DNA of 64,000 nt from Antedon mediterranea. Taxonomy: Eukaryota > Echinodermata > Crinoidea > Comatulida > Antedonidae. Where the stretch lies: the NCBI RefSeq assembly GCF_964355755.1, contig NC_092680.1, forward strand, positions 1,651,001 through 1,715,000. Reading direction: 5' to 3'. The notes below the pieces were generated by a model. It searched no databases, was not told the DNA's origin, and saw only the letters and a list, made by a program, of their open reading frames with translations. Positions 23,074 to 61,388 of the stretch are shown one piece after another (position 1 is the stretch's first letter; every line of letters starts with the position of its first letter). Made by a program: the position numbers and the translations under genes.

Positions 23074-24210
23074 AAGGTTTCTTGTAAATGTCTACAACTC
23101 TATTCTTGAGTGGAAACTCAATAATTATACAGTAGTGTGAAGATGAATATTTAAAGGTCACTTTCAAAACTAGCTATTATTAATAATTTAATTATTAATT
23201 AATAATACAATTCCTTTCAACATTATTTTTAAAGGTTTGCATGGCAAATAAACACTAATAAAGTAAGGTTTACGGTACATCATGCATAAAAACAGAAACA
23301 TTTAAGTATATAATATGCTACCGTCTATAAAGATGTAGCACAACAATCAAACATCAAGACAATTGAGTTCATTTTGTTTCCTTTTTGAAATACATGGTGT
23401 ATCGCAAACCATACTTTATCTTTTAACACGTATTATTCTTAAAAGGACTTTTTTTTATTTTTAGCAAGTTTACACAGGATTATTTAACAATATTTATTAA
23501 TATTTAAATACTATTAATATTTAAACAGCATTATATAATGGTTTTTCATGTGTTTGTGAATCTATATATTTATTTTTATTATATTAAAAAAACTGCATAG
23601 TATAAAACAGCATTAATGGATTACTGAATTATATTTATGTTTTATACCCAATAGATATTTTAAAAAGGGTGGGTCACATTTTATTGTTTCTTTCTAAATC
23701 AAAATTACAGATTAGATGACATATAATAGTATAACTGATCTATTTTTAACATTTGAGGAGTAAAAACATATTTTTTTCACTCAATATCATTTGCCTTGTT
23801 GGGAATGGCCCATTCCAAAGGTTGGTGATGTCCGTAGAATTCAGGAGCAAATCCAGGATTTTTTTTTATTTGGGGAGGGCACCCTGCTGGTTCCACCCTC
23901 GGTATTCCATGTTGTATATTTTATTACGTATATAAAGCTTTCTTTCTAGAATTGTTAATGATTATTTAGTTTATATGTGAATTAAATATTTTAAATGATA
24001 CTGTTCTACAATTATGATTAAGATTAATTGTAGAACCTAAGTGTTTATTATGTATGTGTATGCTGTATATAATTTTATTTAATATGCTTTTTTTGTGTTG
24101 TTATATAAACAACGTATTTTATTAATTGGCTGATTGTTTTGATCTATTTTATTTTAATTCAAATAAAATATTTCAAGTTATTTTTTATCTTATTCATATT
24201 TTGTAACCAT

Positions 24211-24890
24211 AGTACAGGGATTTTTTCGAAAAAAGGCCAGAATATCCACTTTTAAAATTCAATAATTATGCAATAATATTGCCATATATGCACATATATG
24301 GTGTTATCATCATCTTAGAGAGCCACAGTAACTAGTTATGTCAAAAAATGAAAGGGTCGAAATTCGGACATTTTTCGAAAATATCCCTGTACTATAGTAC
24401 AGGGATTTTTTCGAAAAAAGGCCAGAATATCCACTTTTAAAATTCAATAATTATGCAATAATATTGCCATATATGCACATATATGGTGTTATCATCATCT
24501 TAGAGAGCCATAGTAACTAGTTATGTCAAAAAATGAAGGGTCGAAATACAGCCATTTTTCAAAAATATCCCTGTACTATAGTACAGGGATTTTTTCGAAA
24601 AAAAAGGCTAGAATATCCACTTTTAAAATTCAATAATTATGCAATAATATTCCCATATATGCACATATATGGTGTTATCATCATCTTAGAGAGCCATAGT
24701 AACTAGTTATGTCAAAAAATGAAGGGTCGAAATACAGCCATTTTTCGAAAATATCCCTGTACTATAGTACAGGGATTTTTTCGAAAAAAAAGGCCAGAAT
24801 ATCCACTTTTAAAATTCAATAATTATGCAATAATATTCCCATATATGCACATATATGGTGTTATCATCATCTTATAGAGCCATAGTAACA
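24211..24890. repeat. Head-to-tail array of a TIR element, 3.7 x about 185 bp
   Basis: Units begin at 24211, 24396, 24580 and 24766. Each unit starts AGTACAGGGATTTTTTCGAA and ends with the inverted TTTTTCGAAAATATCCCTGT then ACT, so every monomer is flanked by its own terminal inverted repeats of about 22 bases. Junctions read CCCTGTACTATAGTACAGGG, a perfect palindrome. The last copy is cut off. Unit-to-unit differences are few, indicating recent expansion. Confidence 0.9.
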
Positions 24891-25780: not shown

Positions 25781-25975
25781 AGAATAATAGTTAAGTTAAG
25801 TATTTAATTAGTGATATTATATAAGCAAAATATGTTATAAAGGCTTGGCAAGTGGTAAACTACATTTATAGAACTTGGAAACATAGAACAACTAAAAAAA
25901 CTAAGCATGCGTAGCAAAAAGGGTGAAACAAGAGTAGTATTAATTATATAGTAATATCAACACTAGAACTCTTTT

Positions 25976-26275
25976 AAGGTGACACCTCTATTCACAGCAC
26001 ACTTGTCCATGAGATAAACAAGAGAAAACATGTTTTAACATATAGGCCCTACTCAGGGGATATCCCATTTAAGGTGACACCCTCTATTCACAGCACACTT
26101 GTCCATGAGACAAACAAGAGAAAACATATGTTTTAACATATAGGCCCTACTCAGGGGATATCCCATTTAAGGTGACACCTCTATTCACAGCACACTTGTC
26201 CATGAGATAAACAAGAGAAAACATATGTTTTAACATATAGGCCCTACTCAGGGGATATCCCATTTAAGGTGACAC
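25976..26275. repeat. Minisatellite, 3 units of 95-98 bp
   Basis: Units start at 25976, 26071 and 26169 with AAGGTGACAC and end with GGGGATATCCCATTT; a partial fourth begins at 26267. Very similar to each other. Confidence 0.9.
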
Positions 26276-26808: not shown

Positions 26809-38212
<11,404 letters not shown>

Positions 38213-48586: not shown

Positions 48587-51500
48587 CTAGAAGTTATTAA
48601 TTAGAGATTGACCTGTAGTAGTGTTACTTGACTCCATCTCTGACGTTCTGTCTTCTGTATCCTCTGGTGGACCATTCTCATCTTCTTCTGTAAAATCATT
48701 TCTGGTATATCGACCATCTAAACTTTTTCTGCATACAGGACAAGTATTATGCTGTAATACAGAATATACACACAATTTACATCATTGTAATTTCAATTTA
48801 TATATAGTGGTATAGTTAAAAATGTGTTTGTTACAAATAGAGGTTCCAACTTTGAAAATAAGTTATAAAATGATGGCCAAAACAAAAAAGCGTGCTATAC
48901 AAATTATATCGAACTAGAGAGGGTGCTATTAAAATGGATCTACATCTATAGTAAACCAGATATGCAAAGGGCTTTCAAGGCATAACATAGCCTACACCAG
49001 AAATCCCTTTCATTATAATAAATACATTCTGGAACAGGTACTACTGTGTGTACAATTATAATATAAGATAAATCATTTCCTAAAGCTCTGTCTACACTAT
49101 CAAACTAGTTTGACAAAGAAAGTGTGATGTACCCAAATATGGTAGTGATATGCCCAAAATATTGTAGTGATATGACATCATCATGTCCATATATGGGCAC
49201 ATCACATATTTTTGTCACATAAAGTTTTGTAGTGTAGACAGAGCTTAACATGCAAAAGGTTTATTTACCATTTCCAACCAGGGTATGATGCAATCTGAGT
49301 GAAACAAATGCTCACATGGCATTTTGCGTACTTCTTCATCTTCTGTGTATTCTTCTTTACATACTGCACATTCAGAGTGATTTTCTACATAAAGTTACCA
49401 ATAATAATAATTATTTGAACTTACACCTTTTTATGGGCGGTACATCAACGCAATTGGTGCGCTCGTGTATCGGTGGCACTCGATGATAATTGGTGCGCTC
49501 ATGTAAACAAAATTTTAAAACGCACTTAAAATAAATCTATAAAAATATACACACACCTACTGTAATTGTGGAAACATTACCCATATCAACAATACAATAA
49601 GATAACCAACTACAATACTTACAAAACAGTACTAACAATAAAAATCTAAAATTATACTGCAAAAAAATGTTATAATCCTGCACTGATGAAGGGCTAGTGT
49701 TGCCCGAAAGCTCTGCTAACTTTTCTCGCTGTTTCACTTATTGTTTTCATTTAGCTTTTCCAGCCACTGATACCCACAGCATTGTCATTTTTTCAGTAAT
49801 TTGCCTTTGGATTTATAATCCTGTACACACATACATACACAAATGAAACCATGAATGTTAATATTTTCTTCTTTCTATTAGTTACATTGCACAGATGAAA
49901 ATGTAAATTTTACTTACCAACCATAATTTTTGTGATCTTCACTATCGGTAATTTGTCAATATCTGTCTTCTCTGCTGGAGGGGGTCCACCTCCTTCTAAA
50001 TTACTTAACAACTAAAAATTATAACAAAATCTGTTGGAAAGTGCTGGATCAGCAAAACATTATTTATAATATTCGCAGTCAAAAAATACAATATAAGCTA
50101 GGTTCAATTCTCTCAATGCGATCATATTTCTGGTGGTAAAAGTCTTTTTTGAAAAAGACTTTAAATTTGAAGGTCTACTAAAAAGACTTTAAACTTGAGG
50201 TCTACTAAAAAGACTTTTAAACTTGAGGTCTACTAAAAAGACTTTTAAACTTGAGGTCTACTAAAAAGACTTTAAACTTGAGGTCTACTAAAAAGACTTT
50301 TAAACTTGAGGTCTACTAAAAAGACTTTTAAACTTGAGGTCTACTAAAAAGACTTTTAAACTTGAGGTCTACTAAAAAGACTTTAAACTTGAGGTCTACT
50401 AAAAAGACTTTAAACTTGAGGTCTACTAAAAAGACTTTAAACTTGAGGTCTACTAAAAAGACTTTTAAACTTAAGGTCTACTAAAAAGACTTTTAAACTT
50501 GAGGTCTACTAAAAAGACTTTAAACTTGAGGTCTACTAAAAAGACTTTAAACTTGAGGTCTACTAAAAAGACTTTAAACTTGAGGTCTACTAAAAGAGAC
50601 TTTAAACTTGAGGTCTAGTGTACACATCTGGCTCTTATTCAAGAACTATGGTAAAGCTCTGTCTACACTATCAAACTAGTTTGGCAAAAAAAAAGTGTGA
50701 TGTGCCCAAATATGGTAGTGATATCCTCAAATATGGTAGTGATATGACATCATCATAAATGTCCATATATGGGCACATCACATTTTTTGTCACATAAAGT
50801 TTGATAGTGTAGACAAAGCTTTAAGGAGAGTTTTGAACCCATTTCAATTGTATGACAATTGTTTTCAGCACCTCTACATCACTCGGCCAGTTGAATTCAA
50901 GACTAAGTTTGTAAGAAAGATGTGACATGTGTAAGATACATAAAGAGAAGTACTTACTTGTGTTATTATTGTATCTAGACCACGCTCACCCCATGCATAA
51001 TCCCCAGGCCTTCCATGTAGATTCATTAATTGTCTGAAATCAACAAAGGCGATACAACTATACTGTAATGCACGCACCTCAAAAACCCAGAATAGAGGTG
51101 TTATAAAGAGTCAACATTACTGTCTGTATACCAAGCATAGAGGTATTATAAAGAGTCAATATTACTGTCTGTATACCAAGCATAGAGGTATTATAAAGAG
51201 TTGACATTACTGTCTGTATACCAAGCATAGAGGTATTATAAAGAGTCAATATTACTGTCTGTATACCAAGCATAGAGGTATTATAAAGAGTCAACATTAC
51301 TGTCTGTATACCAAGCATAGAGGTATTATAAAGAGTTGACATTACTGTCTGTATACCAAGCATAGAGGTATTATAAAGAGTCAATATTACTGTCTGTATA
51401 CCAAGCATAGAGGTATTATAAAGAGTCAACATTACTGTATGTATACCAAGCATAGAGGTATTATAAAGAGTTGACATTACTGTCTGTATACCAAGCATAG

Positions 51501-54500
51501 AGGTATTATAAAGAGTCAATATTACTGTCTGTATACCAAGCATAGAGGTATTATAAAGAGTCAATATTACTGTCTGTATACCAAGCATAGAGGTATTATA
51601 AAGAGTTGACATTACTGTCTGTATACCAAGCATAGAGGTATTATAAAGAGTTGACATTACTGTCTGTATACCAAGCATAGAGGTATTATAAAGAGTCAAT
51701 ATTACTGTATGTATACCAAGCATAGAGGTATTATAAAGAGTTGACATTACTGTCTGTATACCAAGCATAGAGGTATTATAAAGAGTTGACATTACTGTCT
51801 GTATACCAAGCATAGAGGTATTATAAAGAGTCAATATTACTGTCTGTATACCAAGCATAGAGGTATTATAAAGAGTTGACATTACTGTCTGTATACCAAG
51901 CATAGAGGTATTATAAAGAGTTGACATTACTGTCTGTATACCAAGCATAGAGGTATTATAAAGAGTTGACATTACTGTCTGTATACCAAGCATAGAGGTA
52001 TTATAAAGAGTTGACATTACTGTCTGTATACCAAGCATAGAGGTATTATAAAGAGTTGACATTACTGTCTGTATACCAAGCATAGAGGTATTATAAAGAG
52101 TTGACATTACTGTCTGTATACCAAGCATAGAGGTATTATAAAACTAGAGCGTCAACATTGTGCACAAAACCAAAGCTTTAAACCGACATGAATGTATTCT
52201 TGAGCTTAAGTTCATTTCTATCTTGGTGTCCATAGCTGTGATGCTAACTATTACGATTTACAGTGAAAATATATTATACCCCTTTAACACCAAAAGCAAA
52301 ACTCTGGAGACACTCCGGAGTTCTGGTGTGTAAGGGGTATTACACAACTGTGATCAGTCTGTTGTATATTTCAATAAAACTCATAATTTTGGATTTGTTT
52401 TTTTAGTTGTGCACAAAAGTTTTATAAATAATTTACAATCATCTACTTACACTGGAAATGGATGACCACTACCGACCCCACCCATACCTAATAAATGTTG
52501 CAAAATCCTGCAAACAAAAACATCAATCATAACATATAATATGCTGCAAACACTATGTATGACACACATATTGTGGTACATACTGTATCTATAGAGTTTG
52601 TAGGTTTGTAAATGATACAGATTTTTAGTAACACATCCATATACATATACAATAATGAGCAGAATTGTACTTTTAAACTATATTTCAAATCAGGTATTTT
52701 ATTTATTTGCTAGTTTAATATAGACATGAGAATTTTTCATTTTAAAGGTGTTTTTTTATGCTAGTATGAATGGTGAACACAGCCGCTAACATTTAAGCTC
52801 TGGGTCTACACTATCAAACTAGTTTGAAAAGTGTGATGTGCCCAAATATGGTAGTGATATGCCCACATACTGTATGGTAGTGATATGACATCATCCATAT
52901 ATGGGCACATCACATTTTTATCACATAAAGTTTGATAGTGTAGACAAAGCTGATATTCACAAAGGGTGATAAGAATTGTTTGCAACTGGCTCAATAACTA
53001 AAATGGATCATTGTTGAGCATCGTATAAGTCACTACTCAAAACTCACATTTTCTAATATTTTTGGCAGCACCATGAGCAATGACTGTTGGAATGACTATT
53101 TAAAATTCCCTACTGTATCCATGCGACAATAATTTGATGAGGCTTTGTACTCTTGATATTTATAATGATTGTGGTGACTTACATTATCATGTCTTGCGCA
53201 GGGTCAGCTGCATCTCTTCCTAATTGTCTTACTCTTACTGGAAACCGTCTACGACCGGTAGTAATTACTGGAGCTGCTGGCTCTTGTGGCCCATCTGCTG
53301 ATCCAAGTTGCATCCATAACTAAGTACAATGTTAAAGTAATAAAAGTAATATGGTTTCAGAATTGGAACTGTACTCTATGAGGAAGGGAACACACATTTG
53401 TTTTTATCTGTTTTTTATTTGTTAAATGTAGAGAATATTTCATTGGTTTCACTGCTCTAGTTTAATCCGGATTGTTTCATTTTCATTTATTAGACAAGGT
53501 CAAGGGGTCAAGGTCAAGGGGTTGCGATGGCAACAATGCGCCAATCGTGTGAGTGTCCACAACCCCTAAATTAGAGCATTTTTTTACTCTTTCTCTCATG
53601 TATTCATTATTTGTATACCAATTTACCTGATTGAACACCGTTAGTGAACTATCAGGATCTGTACTTGGTCTTGATTCTCTCTCATGTTCTGTTGTCCTAA
53701 AATAAAAAATAAATTTAATGAGTTAAATGTATATAAAAATCACAATTTTTCGAGATTTTCTTGCAATTTTATTTATTAATATTGGTTTGGGATATATGCA
53801 AATTAGTATGTTAAAAGCAAAATAACATTATTATTGTAGAGTAACCTTTCGGTCTGTTGTGTTGTTCCACCGTCCAATTCTTCAACAAATCCTGTACTAC
53901 ACCTTGGACATGTGTAATCCTATATGAAGATAAGATAAATATTTCATAATAATTGATATTATAACATGGGTTCAAGTACTGTCTGATTCCTCCATTATCA
54001 GTTAGCTATTCCAAGAAGACCATGATTTCGTGTTAAACATTAATATAAAAATAATGCACTTGTCTAAATTCATATGTTAGTGGAGATGTGGCGTACTCTT
54101 GGATGGATATTTACAATGTCGTGTAACATGCACTCAGCTGTGCCTTGTGCATTATTGTAACTACTCTCGAGTGCGCGGCATCTCCACTAATGCACTCTGA
54201 CTCTGATATAATTGAGGAATCAGCGGGTAGCTTTTCATCAGAGACTAAGTTATTGGTCAGATGTAGTACAATTACGTCAGGGTAGGATAAAACATCTGTC
54301 TGACCAATACCAACCTATTTATTTACGATGGACAAAGAAAAATAGAAAGATTTAACATATATATATTAATATAAGCAAGGTGAAATTTCAATAACGCTTA
54401 AGCCTAGGTCTATTGTTTTATGTAAAGCAACACCATGGAGTTACTCCATGGCAACACATACCTCTCATTTATTACTCCCTGGGTTTAGGAACGTAATGTA

Positions 54501-58186: not shown

Positions 58187-61100
58187 ATGGCTGCATCAGG
58201 TATGATTATTAATATTGAGCCTAAATGAACAAGGCCATACATGGCTGCAGTCGCGTGCTCAAGTTAATGTTTACCGACGACCTACCGACCAACCAACCGA
58301 CGACCGACATAGTGAGCTGTAGAAAATAGGAAATCACGTACTATTAAAAAGAAATTGGCTCACAAAAAAAATAAAGAAATAAATTAAAGTTCTAAAAAGT
58401 CTTATTGTGATTAACTAACTTGTTATCACAAAAACCGAAGAAGTTTGTCTAAATCTAAACGTTGTTTGGTACAGATGTGAAATAGTGAGTAACAGGCATT
58501 ATGTTAACTTTATATCGTAAACTGCTTGTCAGCGAAGATTTATATTAATATTGGAAACAATTATATTTCTAGGTATCAGTGAAAGCAAAGTAACCGGCAC
58601 TTACAAGCCATTTGCACAACTGCGTCAATTCCTGGAACAAACCACTGAGGAGGCAGATTCCTCAGAAATGTTGCCCACCCTCCATCGCTTAGCCAGCGAA
58701 GGAAATGAGTCTGAGCTCAGTGACGTGATTAACAACGGAGGTAACGTCAACGAAGAGGACAACGATGGCTACACATCTCTTTATCATGCTGTTAGTGGAG
58801 GGCATGTAAAAGTTATTGAAATATTGCTAAAAAATGGTGCACATGTTATTGGAAAACATAGCCTTTTTCACGTTGTCTCCGATTTAGAATCTGCCCAATT
58901 ACTGCTTCAAGCCAAGGCTAACCCGGATGGCCGTAATGAATATGGAGACTCTCCATTACAAACAGCAATAAGAAAGGGCAAACATGAACTTGTAGATTTT
59001 TTCTTGACAGTTGGTGTCGATGTTCTAAACAGAAATAATAAAGGAGAGACTCCACTTCACACACTCTGTTCATCATTTATGGAAGATGAAAATCTAACCA
59101 AAAAATTGATTAAAATCGGAGGTAGGCCTACTGTTAATTCGAAAGACGCCCAGGGCAGGTCTCCGTTACATTTAGCTGTCATGCATTCTTCTCTCGAGAA
59201 AAGAAAAACAGTAAACATTCTGGTAAAGGCAGGAGCATCTGTGACAGACTTAGATCTGCAGGGAATGAATCCTATTCATTATCTCGTAGAGAGTAGCTGC
59301 AGACCATATTATTCCGAAGTTGATAATAAGTTGTTATTCGATTACATTGATCTGCTAGTCATTCATGATAATGCAGCAAATTCGCAGGATGCAATTGGTC
59401 AAAGCATCCTACATTTAGCAATACCCGCAGGAGCACCATTACAAGTGCTGGAATACCTTGTACAGAAAGGATGTGTACCCACCGCTGAAGACGGCCGAAA
59501 ACGCAGTTTACTGCATTGTATTGTAGACCGAGATGTTGATGACGCAATTGATATTTTAAAATTCTTATTGGACAAGAAACTTGATATCAATTCTCCTGAT
59601 AAGTGGGGACAGACAGCCTTGCATCAAGCTATAGAGAAGGGTAAGAAGGAACTTTTTAAAGCTTTGCTTAAACGTGGAGCAGACGTGAACGTGAAAGATT
59701 CAATCGGCAGACAACCGATACACATTGCAGCAGAGAGTGGTTCTGACGTCATTTGCAATTCTTTAATCAAACTAGGGGCAGATATCAACGCACAGGACAA
59801 CTATCAGTCCACGCCACTCCATTTTGCCGCGTGGGGAAACAGTGCTTCTGTGGCAAATGTTTTGATCCAAGCAGGATGTGATGTTGAACTTTGCGATGCA
59901 TGTGATCAAACAGCGCAAGAGGTGGCAACATTTTGGTCAAATGTTGATTTTATGCAGATAATACATGAAAAAGACGGAACTCAAAAACTTGAATTGGAAC
60001 GACCAAATAAACCGTTCGCAAAACATGGTGGTAAGTGTTTGCAGCTTGAAGATTTTCAAGATATCATCGACTCTAGTCCGGAATCAACACGGACGTCGGG
60101 CACGTTAAGTGAATATTTAAACTGCTTAATTTCCACACCAGGAATGGGGACTGTTTTTGAACATCTCGAAGCGATGGAAATCCGGGATGCTTTAGACAGA
60201 TTTGTGGCAAATGTGGTGAAACGTATAGCAGTCAATAATCCAAAAATGCGTTGTAGTCTGTACCACGTAGGTAGTTCATCAGAAAGCACCAAGACAAAAT
60301 ACCCGGATGAGTTTGACTATGTTGTCTGTCTTGATGAACTGAGTGAAAATATTTATCCAGAACATGAAACCGAGGACGTTCAAGAAAATGTCTATTTTGT
60401 TCCAGATAAGGAAGGAAATGAGGAAGGAAAAGAGGTGTTAGAGAAGGGAGTAGACTATAAAGAAACTTCTTCTTCAGTGTCAATTTACACTCAAATATTT
60501 CTGAAAGATCAGACAAGCTACGAGTACTCGGAGTTTACACACGACGGCCTAGAACTGAAAAACATTTCAAATTGTATGATGTTTAATGTATTCTCAAGGC
60601 AACTGTCGAATATCGTTTTCAATGAAAGCTTCCCACAAGATGAACGTTTGGTAGTAAAGGACGTCACCAATGACCCCAAGTTCTGCTTGTTGTGGAAAGG
60701 ATCGAGATATAAAACTATGGCTATCGAAGTTGATTTTGTTCCAGCAGTACGCCTTCCTTCTTGGGCAGACAATTTTCAAGATCAGTCTCCACTCCTCGTT
60801 CCAGACATTATACAACTTCCATGTCTCGCTGTTCCAAAAATGACGAGTGAAGAAGATGACAGACTTTGGAGATGCTCTCTGTGTCTTGTTGAAGTTGCTA
60901 TTATGAAAAGATGTCTAAATCGAATTCGAAACAGCTACATAGCTGCCAAGTCAATGATCAGCTCGGTTATTTGTCCATTTGTTAGTTTCGAAGACTACAC
61001 AGACGTAAAGATACAGTATGCACGTGAACATGGCAGTTTGGCTTCTGATGAGGACCCTATTATGTTTGAACCAATCGAAGGTATAATACCATCATATATA

Positions 61101-61388
61101 CTAAAAATGGCCTTCTTCCACTCCATAGAAGAGAAAGCAATGAAGAATGGAGTGGAAAGTGTCTTTGGTTCTGAGAGTGCTTCTGATGTTTCGTCGAGTG
61201 AAGAACCCGACCCAGAAATAGTTAAGGACATATTCACAAAATGTGATGATTGGCTTTCGAATCGGTTTGTTCCATCGTTCTTCAACCCACGACAAAATGT
61301 AATGGGGTCAACGATGCTGGAAGAAAATAGTGTTAAAGCGCATATGTTTGTAAAGTATATTTTGAAGCTTTTAAATGAAAAGTGTTGA
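58187..61388 (+). CDS. Ankyrin-repeat Mab-21 / cGAS-like nucleotidyltransferase
   Basis: Two coding exons, 58187-58199 (MAAS plus one base) and 58573-61388; 942 aa. The 5' exon begins at about 58138 after a TTTTTTCAG acceptor and joins as MAASGISESK. About twelve ankyrin repeats span residues 38-472 (TPLHxAxxxG and LLxxGAxxN signatures). They are followed by a Mab-21 nucleotidyltransferase domain, about 500-942. Catalytic features are GS at 571-572, E584 and D586 in PDEFDYVV, and D725 in MAIEVDFVPAV. The 12-residue step from Ser to Glu is the same as in cGAS (S213 to E225). The C-lobe has LWRCSLCLVEV, IPSYILKMAFFH and FVPSFFNPRQNV like other Mab-21 proteins. This suggests a cGAS-like receptor making a cyclic dinucleotide after sensing a ligand, in innate immunity. 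Ligand, product and a zinc-binding thumb cannot be established. It could instead be a non-immune Mab-21 protein, but those often lose these residues. Confidence 0.93.

Follow-up and report, generated by a model that had tools for sequence, protein, structure and literature searches.

We report that a 64,000-nucleotide stretch of the Antedon mediterranea genome (NC_092680.1, positions 1,651,001 to 1,715,000 of the forward strand; here called the window) contains a gene for an ankyrin-repeat cGAS-like receptor (cGLR), and we give roughly even odds (about 0.5) to the overall explanation that this protein is triggered through its ankyrin repeats and signals to STING. Under this explanation, the protein would most likely be cytosolic and switched off at rest. 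Binding of a partner by the ankyrin repeats, whether a microbial or a host protein, would release or order the enzyme half, which would then join two nucleotides into a cyclic dinucleotide, and this in turn would be detected by at least one STING protein encoded in the genome. We consider enzymatic activity itself probable, a prediction supported by the sequence, the modeled fold, and the retention of the site in paralogues that diverged deeply. That the product is a cyclic dinucleotide that signals to STING is a step to which we assign an even chance.

The encoded protein of 942 amino acids starts with MAASGISESK and is obtained by splicing positions 58187-58199 to positions 58573-61388 of the window, which yields a frame without interruption on the plus strand. 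The first exon (58187..58199) supplies MAAS and the first base of codon 5, and is followed by a GT...AG intron of 373 bases (58200..58572); both are inferred from sequence. The second exon (58573..61388) supplies the remainder of the protein, including both domains, from a stop-to-stop frame of 955 codons. The splice signals (donor CAG/gtatga, acceptor ttctag/G) restore the frame, and the ATG stands in a good context (-3 is A, +4 is G). The four-residue first exon is a plausible prediction. Resplicing exactly reproduced the gene coordinates and the residue numbers (G571, S572, E584, D586, and D725) given in a preliminary description of this DNA. Because the ankyrin and Mab-21 halves are both located inside the single 955-codon frame, the fusion is independent of the gene model, on which exon 1 alone depends. 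The length of this open frame, together with the Pfam E values reported below, excludes chance as its origin. Two separate genes misread as one were ruled out, since a single open exon holds both halves and three paralogues repeat the fusion. A pseudogene was ruled out by 2.8 kb of sequence free of stops and frameshifts and by a GC content of 41% in the coding sequence versus 33% in the window, and a recent duplicate or transposon was ruled out by a search of the genome for further DNA copies, which found none. No viral relatives of the gene were confirmed among viral contigs.

The N-terminal half of the protein is composed of 12 to 13 ankyrin repeats (58668..59975, plus strand; ORF residues 33-468; Pfam Ank_2, 5e-59). 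In the full-length AlphaFold model this span forms approximately 13 helix-pair repeats, mostly with pLDDT values of 80 to 92, and one of them is degenerate, so that the count of about twelve made earlier from the sequence was a fair one. The linker that follows (59976..60152, plus strand; ORF residues 469-527) is mostly predicted to be disordered, with pLDDT values of 26 to 53 over most of its length, and is 13 to 16% identical to the paralogues. The full-length model has a pTM of 0.45, at which the orientation of the ankyrin half relative to the enzyme half is without confident prediction.

The enzyme half consists of a Mab-21 nucleotidyltransferase core (60153..60863, plus strand; ORF residues 528-764) and a C-terminal helical lobe (60867..61385, plus strand; ORF residues 766-938), the latter carrying Ser and Tyr of the SY-x-x-K motif, which binds nucleotide. 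The core matched Pfam Mab-21 at 1.8e-5, barely above the cutoff (25.3 bits versus 24.1), and the lobe matched Mab-21_C weakly (0.02), below the cutoff. We attribute these weak scores to sequence divergence, because a profile built from the ankyrin clade itself (this gene and four relatives, n = 5) matched Cv-cGLR1 (3e-21) and mammalian cGAS (4e-12) over the full extent of the two lobes. Two other proteins matched this profile far more weakly, at just 0.011 for the developmental protein MAB21L1 and just 0.7 for OAS. Structure prediction followed by an overlay on cGAS, as the preliminary description had proposed, revealed that the enzyme half takes the cGAS fold. The AlphaFold model of this half, built with 12 sequences, had a pTM of 0.73 and pLDDT values of 83 to 91 in the catalytic stretches, compared to values below 50 for the GS loop in the full-length model. 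VIA-align placed it on cGAS with a Z score of 24.7 (3.6 Å rmsd, 326 residues) and on Cv-cGLR1 with a Z score of 23.9, the fold alignment spanning domain-model residues 53-479, and Foldseek ranked Cv-cGLR1 at the top (3e-11).

The catalytic residues that had been read from the sequence are all present in the spliced protein, namely, the GS motif G571-S572 (60270..60275), the first two catalytic acids E584-F-D586 (60309..60317), and the third catalytic acid D725 (60732..60734), which aligns to the third acid of Cv-cGLR1; all are on the plus strand, and none of them varies among the 12 family members. The distance from Ser to Glu is 12 residues and equals that of cGAS in an ungapped alignment, as had also been claimed. 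Positions matching S378, K414, S435, and Y436 of cGAS, which we take to be nucleotide-contact residues, were invariant in all 12 aligned proteins, and so were S382, Y383, and K386 in the alignment (n = 12). On the strength of the alignments and the fold match, the three acids are predicted to converge on one site.

In Li et al. 2023 (PMC9980059), the cGLR motif is given as a strict h[QT]GS, with a looser G[S/G] in the methods, and as [DE]h[DE] plus a third acid, with 50 to 90 residues separating the second and third acids. Our protein has the acids of this pattern in E584-F-D586 and D725. With a V before GS (A, S, T, and A in the four paralogues), it fits the looser form of the first element and not the strict one, and the 138 residues between D586 and D725 fall outside the published range. 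The corresponding gap is 107 to 118 residues in the four paralogues, so that the entire ankyrin clade exceeds the limit, and in human cGAS it is 91 by hand count, one above the limit. The excess in our protein coincides with an acidic, disordered, low-confidence insert of approximately 50 residues (60366..60533, plus strand, limits approximate; pLDDT below 50 over domain-model residues 140-178) that is shorter or absent in the paralogues. We regard the overlong gap as a limit of the published pattern rather than as evidence against activity. The V ahead of GS and the presence of a disordered insert between the acids do count against an active enzyme, and intact residues are no guarantee of activity, because many animal cGLRs were inactive in vitro in the same survey (Li et al. 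2023, PMC9980059).

Relatives within the genome gave the strongest indication that the ankyrin clade is held to a catalytic function. A genome-wide Mab-21 search gave 44 matches; these loci were read in part, and the gene counts for ankyrin/Mab-21 proteins and cGLRs are lower bounds. At least four further genes have ankyrin repeats adjoining a Mab-21 domain. Three of these, at C2:2.08 Mb (887 aa), C3:27.86 Mb (974 aa), and C6:9.06 Mb (723 aa), carry both domains in a single frame, as does the gene in the window, and the fourth, at C6:19.36 Mb, has its ankyrin and enzyme parts in two adjacent frames, probably with an intron between them. The five ankyrin-type enzyme halves are only 23 to 26% identical in pairwise comparisons, and all five keep the GS motif and the three acids. 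Their alignment has 289 ungapped columns, of which 24 do not vary, and a random placement would put all five of these site positions within that set with a probability of approximately 3e-6. In a tree, the five genes form one clade (support 100/99) with long branches, apart from both the seven single-domain cGLRs and a large group of Mab-21 proteins of approximately 700 aa. A single clade with branches of this length implies that the catalytic residues have been retained for a long time, and its depth rules out a recent chance fusion with leftover residues. In contrast, the MAB21L-like protein of this genome reads EGRFEGLEVVAPTEFEV and IVQITP, having lost GS and the third acid, in line with the earlier remark that many Mab-21 proteins have lost these residues.

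This conservation bears directly on the main rival explanation, in which the protein is a noncatalytic scaffold whose Mab-21 domain makes no messenger and signals by binding other proteins. There is a precedent for such a role in shrimp, where Mab21 proteins are reported to activate IKKepsilon with no nucleic-acid binding or cGAMP involved. The ankyrin repeats would suit it as protein-binding modules, and loss of the site is seen in Mab-21 relatives, MAB21L among them. A scaffold would not, however, need the catalytic triad or the nucleotide-contact residues, which are invariant although three quarters of the positions differ among the five members. We consider a scaffold unlikely. Nor does the gene belong with the developmental MAB21L sequences: MAB21L1 and MAB21L2 have the Pfam family and the fold in common with it, but their degenerate site and the poor profile match of MAB21L1 set them apart from a protein whose site is intact.

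Returning to the reading of this protein as an active cGLR, its charge offers some indication of what the trigger might be. The enzyme half has a pI of 4.8 and a net charge of -29. The enzyme halves of the other ankyrin members have pI values of 5.2 to 6.2, and the seven single-domain cGLRs have values of 8.5 to 9.4. According to Li et al. 2023 (PMC9980059), nucleic-acid-sensing cGLRs have pI values above 8.5, and acidic cGLRs, with values down to 5.0, were active without added ligand, for which a non-nucleic-acid ligand was suggested. The difference between acidic ankyrin-type and basic single-domain enzyme domains argues weakly for a trigger other than nucleic acid. Ankyrin-type and single-domain cGLRs are not clearly different in the charge of the two helices on which the ligand surface is expected, and the platform helix, with a net charge of +5, is inside the single-domain range. 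Because the pI values fit and the helix charges fail to separate the groups clearly, we propose the ankyrin repeats as the trigger-sensing part only tentatively, at somewhat less than even odds.

The platform helix would suit an active nucleic-acid sensor, which would bind dsRNA or dsDNA on the back face of the enzyme while its ankyrin repeats just localize or gather it, and Cv-cGLR1, the closest solved relative, is activated by dsDNA. Such a sensor is improbable here, given an enzyme half far more acidic than either the single-domain cGLRs of this genome or the published nucleic-acid-sensing cGLRs, and given the absence of the zinc-thumb motif; all 12 proteins lack the pattern H-x5-CC-x6-C.

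A search for STING in this genome, another step put forward in the preliminary description, returned several copies. STING ligand-domain fragments resolved into approximately seven tandem genes on one strand, within 34 kb (C1:19073747-19107246; loci L009-L016). One of these genes (L010) combines an exon for the transmembrane part with an entire ligand domain, the best match of which is the solved STING structure 5cfp (2e-31), which we take to be STING from Nematostella. In L010, the segments KDRPY and EYVT stand where human STING has its pocket residues R238, Y240, and T263. It is plausible that this array serves as the receptor for the ankyrin-cGLR product. Animal cGLRs do vary in what they make (2'3'-cGAMP, 2'3'-cUA, 3'3'-cUA, and further products) and sequence does not fix the product, but a product that is not a STING-type cyclic dinucleotide, such as a linear oligonucleotide or one read by another receptor, is very unlikely when both the fold and the profile point to cyclic-dinucleotide synthases as the nearest proteins, OAS being a distant match, and STING is expanded in the genome. 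The array represents a local expansion, and L010 has no long C-terminal tail, ending shortly past its ligand domain.

The ankyrin-cGLR architecture is already known, and our gene is a further member. Whether such fusions had been described was left open initially; Li et al. 2023 (PMC9980059) does describe them, both as a feature of some cGLRs generally and specifically in Stylophora pistillata, a coral, and proposes that the ankyrin repeats of cGLRs interact with ligands. Those proteins likewise combine a cGLR nucleotidyltransferase with ankyrin repeats in animals that have several STING genes, a likeness at the level of overall architecture. A literature search covering the main text of openly accessible papers found no biochemical characterization of any ankyrin-cGLR. 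The closest solved sequence to the clade, the Crassostrea virginica protein Cv-cGLR1 (PDB 8gjw, in which residues 288-633 of the longer chain are solved), makes 2'3'-cUA and shares with our protein the GS...E.D...D site and a D-x-V-P-A motif, at approximately 17% identity over the aligned fold. Vertebrate cGAS has the fold, the catalytic residues, the Ser-Glu spacing, and the SY motif in common with the ankyrin-cGLR, which differs from it in having no zinc thumb, in being acidic rather than basic, and in carrying a long insert ahead of the third acid and an ankyrin N terminus.

The 2023 survey (PMC9980059) raises the question of non-nucleic-acid ligands for animal cGLRs, and A. mediterranea provides a test set in one animal: five acidic ankyrin-cGLRs with kept sites, seven or more single-domain cGLRs that are basic, and approximately seven STINGs. 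If the ankyrin-cGLR is triggered by protein, the pathway would take in effector- or guard-type sensing in addition to the sensing of nucleic acids. More speculatively, and with a low probability in our estimation, ankyrin-cGLRs could constitute an old animal clade that has lost nucleic-acid sensing, made up of protein-triggered or guard-type cyclic-dinucleotide synthases whose interchangeable ankyrin sensors supply an expanded STING set.

Two other sets of Mab-21 genes were observed in the genome. The proteins of approximately 700 aa (L041-L042, L045-L056, and others) form their own clade (99/98) and are encoded by mostly intronless genes clustered on several chromosomes. Their motif is GS-x-x-E-G-M-P...D-x-D, in which D replaces the first E, and they have a C-terminal extension of approximately 330 aa, with no Pfam match in the one protein tested. 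L043 and L044 (C6:30.526 and 30.538 Mb) are two near-alike multi-exon Mab-21 genes in which the GS loop is longer (GSTSEGFAI...YVDDEMD); they may represent another Mab-21 subfamily, for example, one that is ITPRIP- or MB21D2-like.

The window also holds genes on the plus strand for PHAX (59-805), a multi-MAM-domain protein (approximately 4.0-14.5 kb), and a protein kinase (20.5-22.2 kb), and one on the minus strand for an SMC5-like coiled-coil protein (32.9-37.3 kb), recognized by eye only. These genes, at window positions 1-37300, do not suggest an immune gene cluster around the ankyrin-cGLR. Positions 24209-24889, 25973-26275, 27246-27884, and 50152-50617 are taken up by tandem arrays, whose repeat units measure 186, 97, 104, and approximately 28 bp, respectively. 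At 51085-52142 there is a minisatellite of 23.5 copies of a 45-bp unit, and the repetitive 349-aa ORF on its minus strand is almost certainly not a gene.
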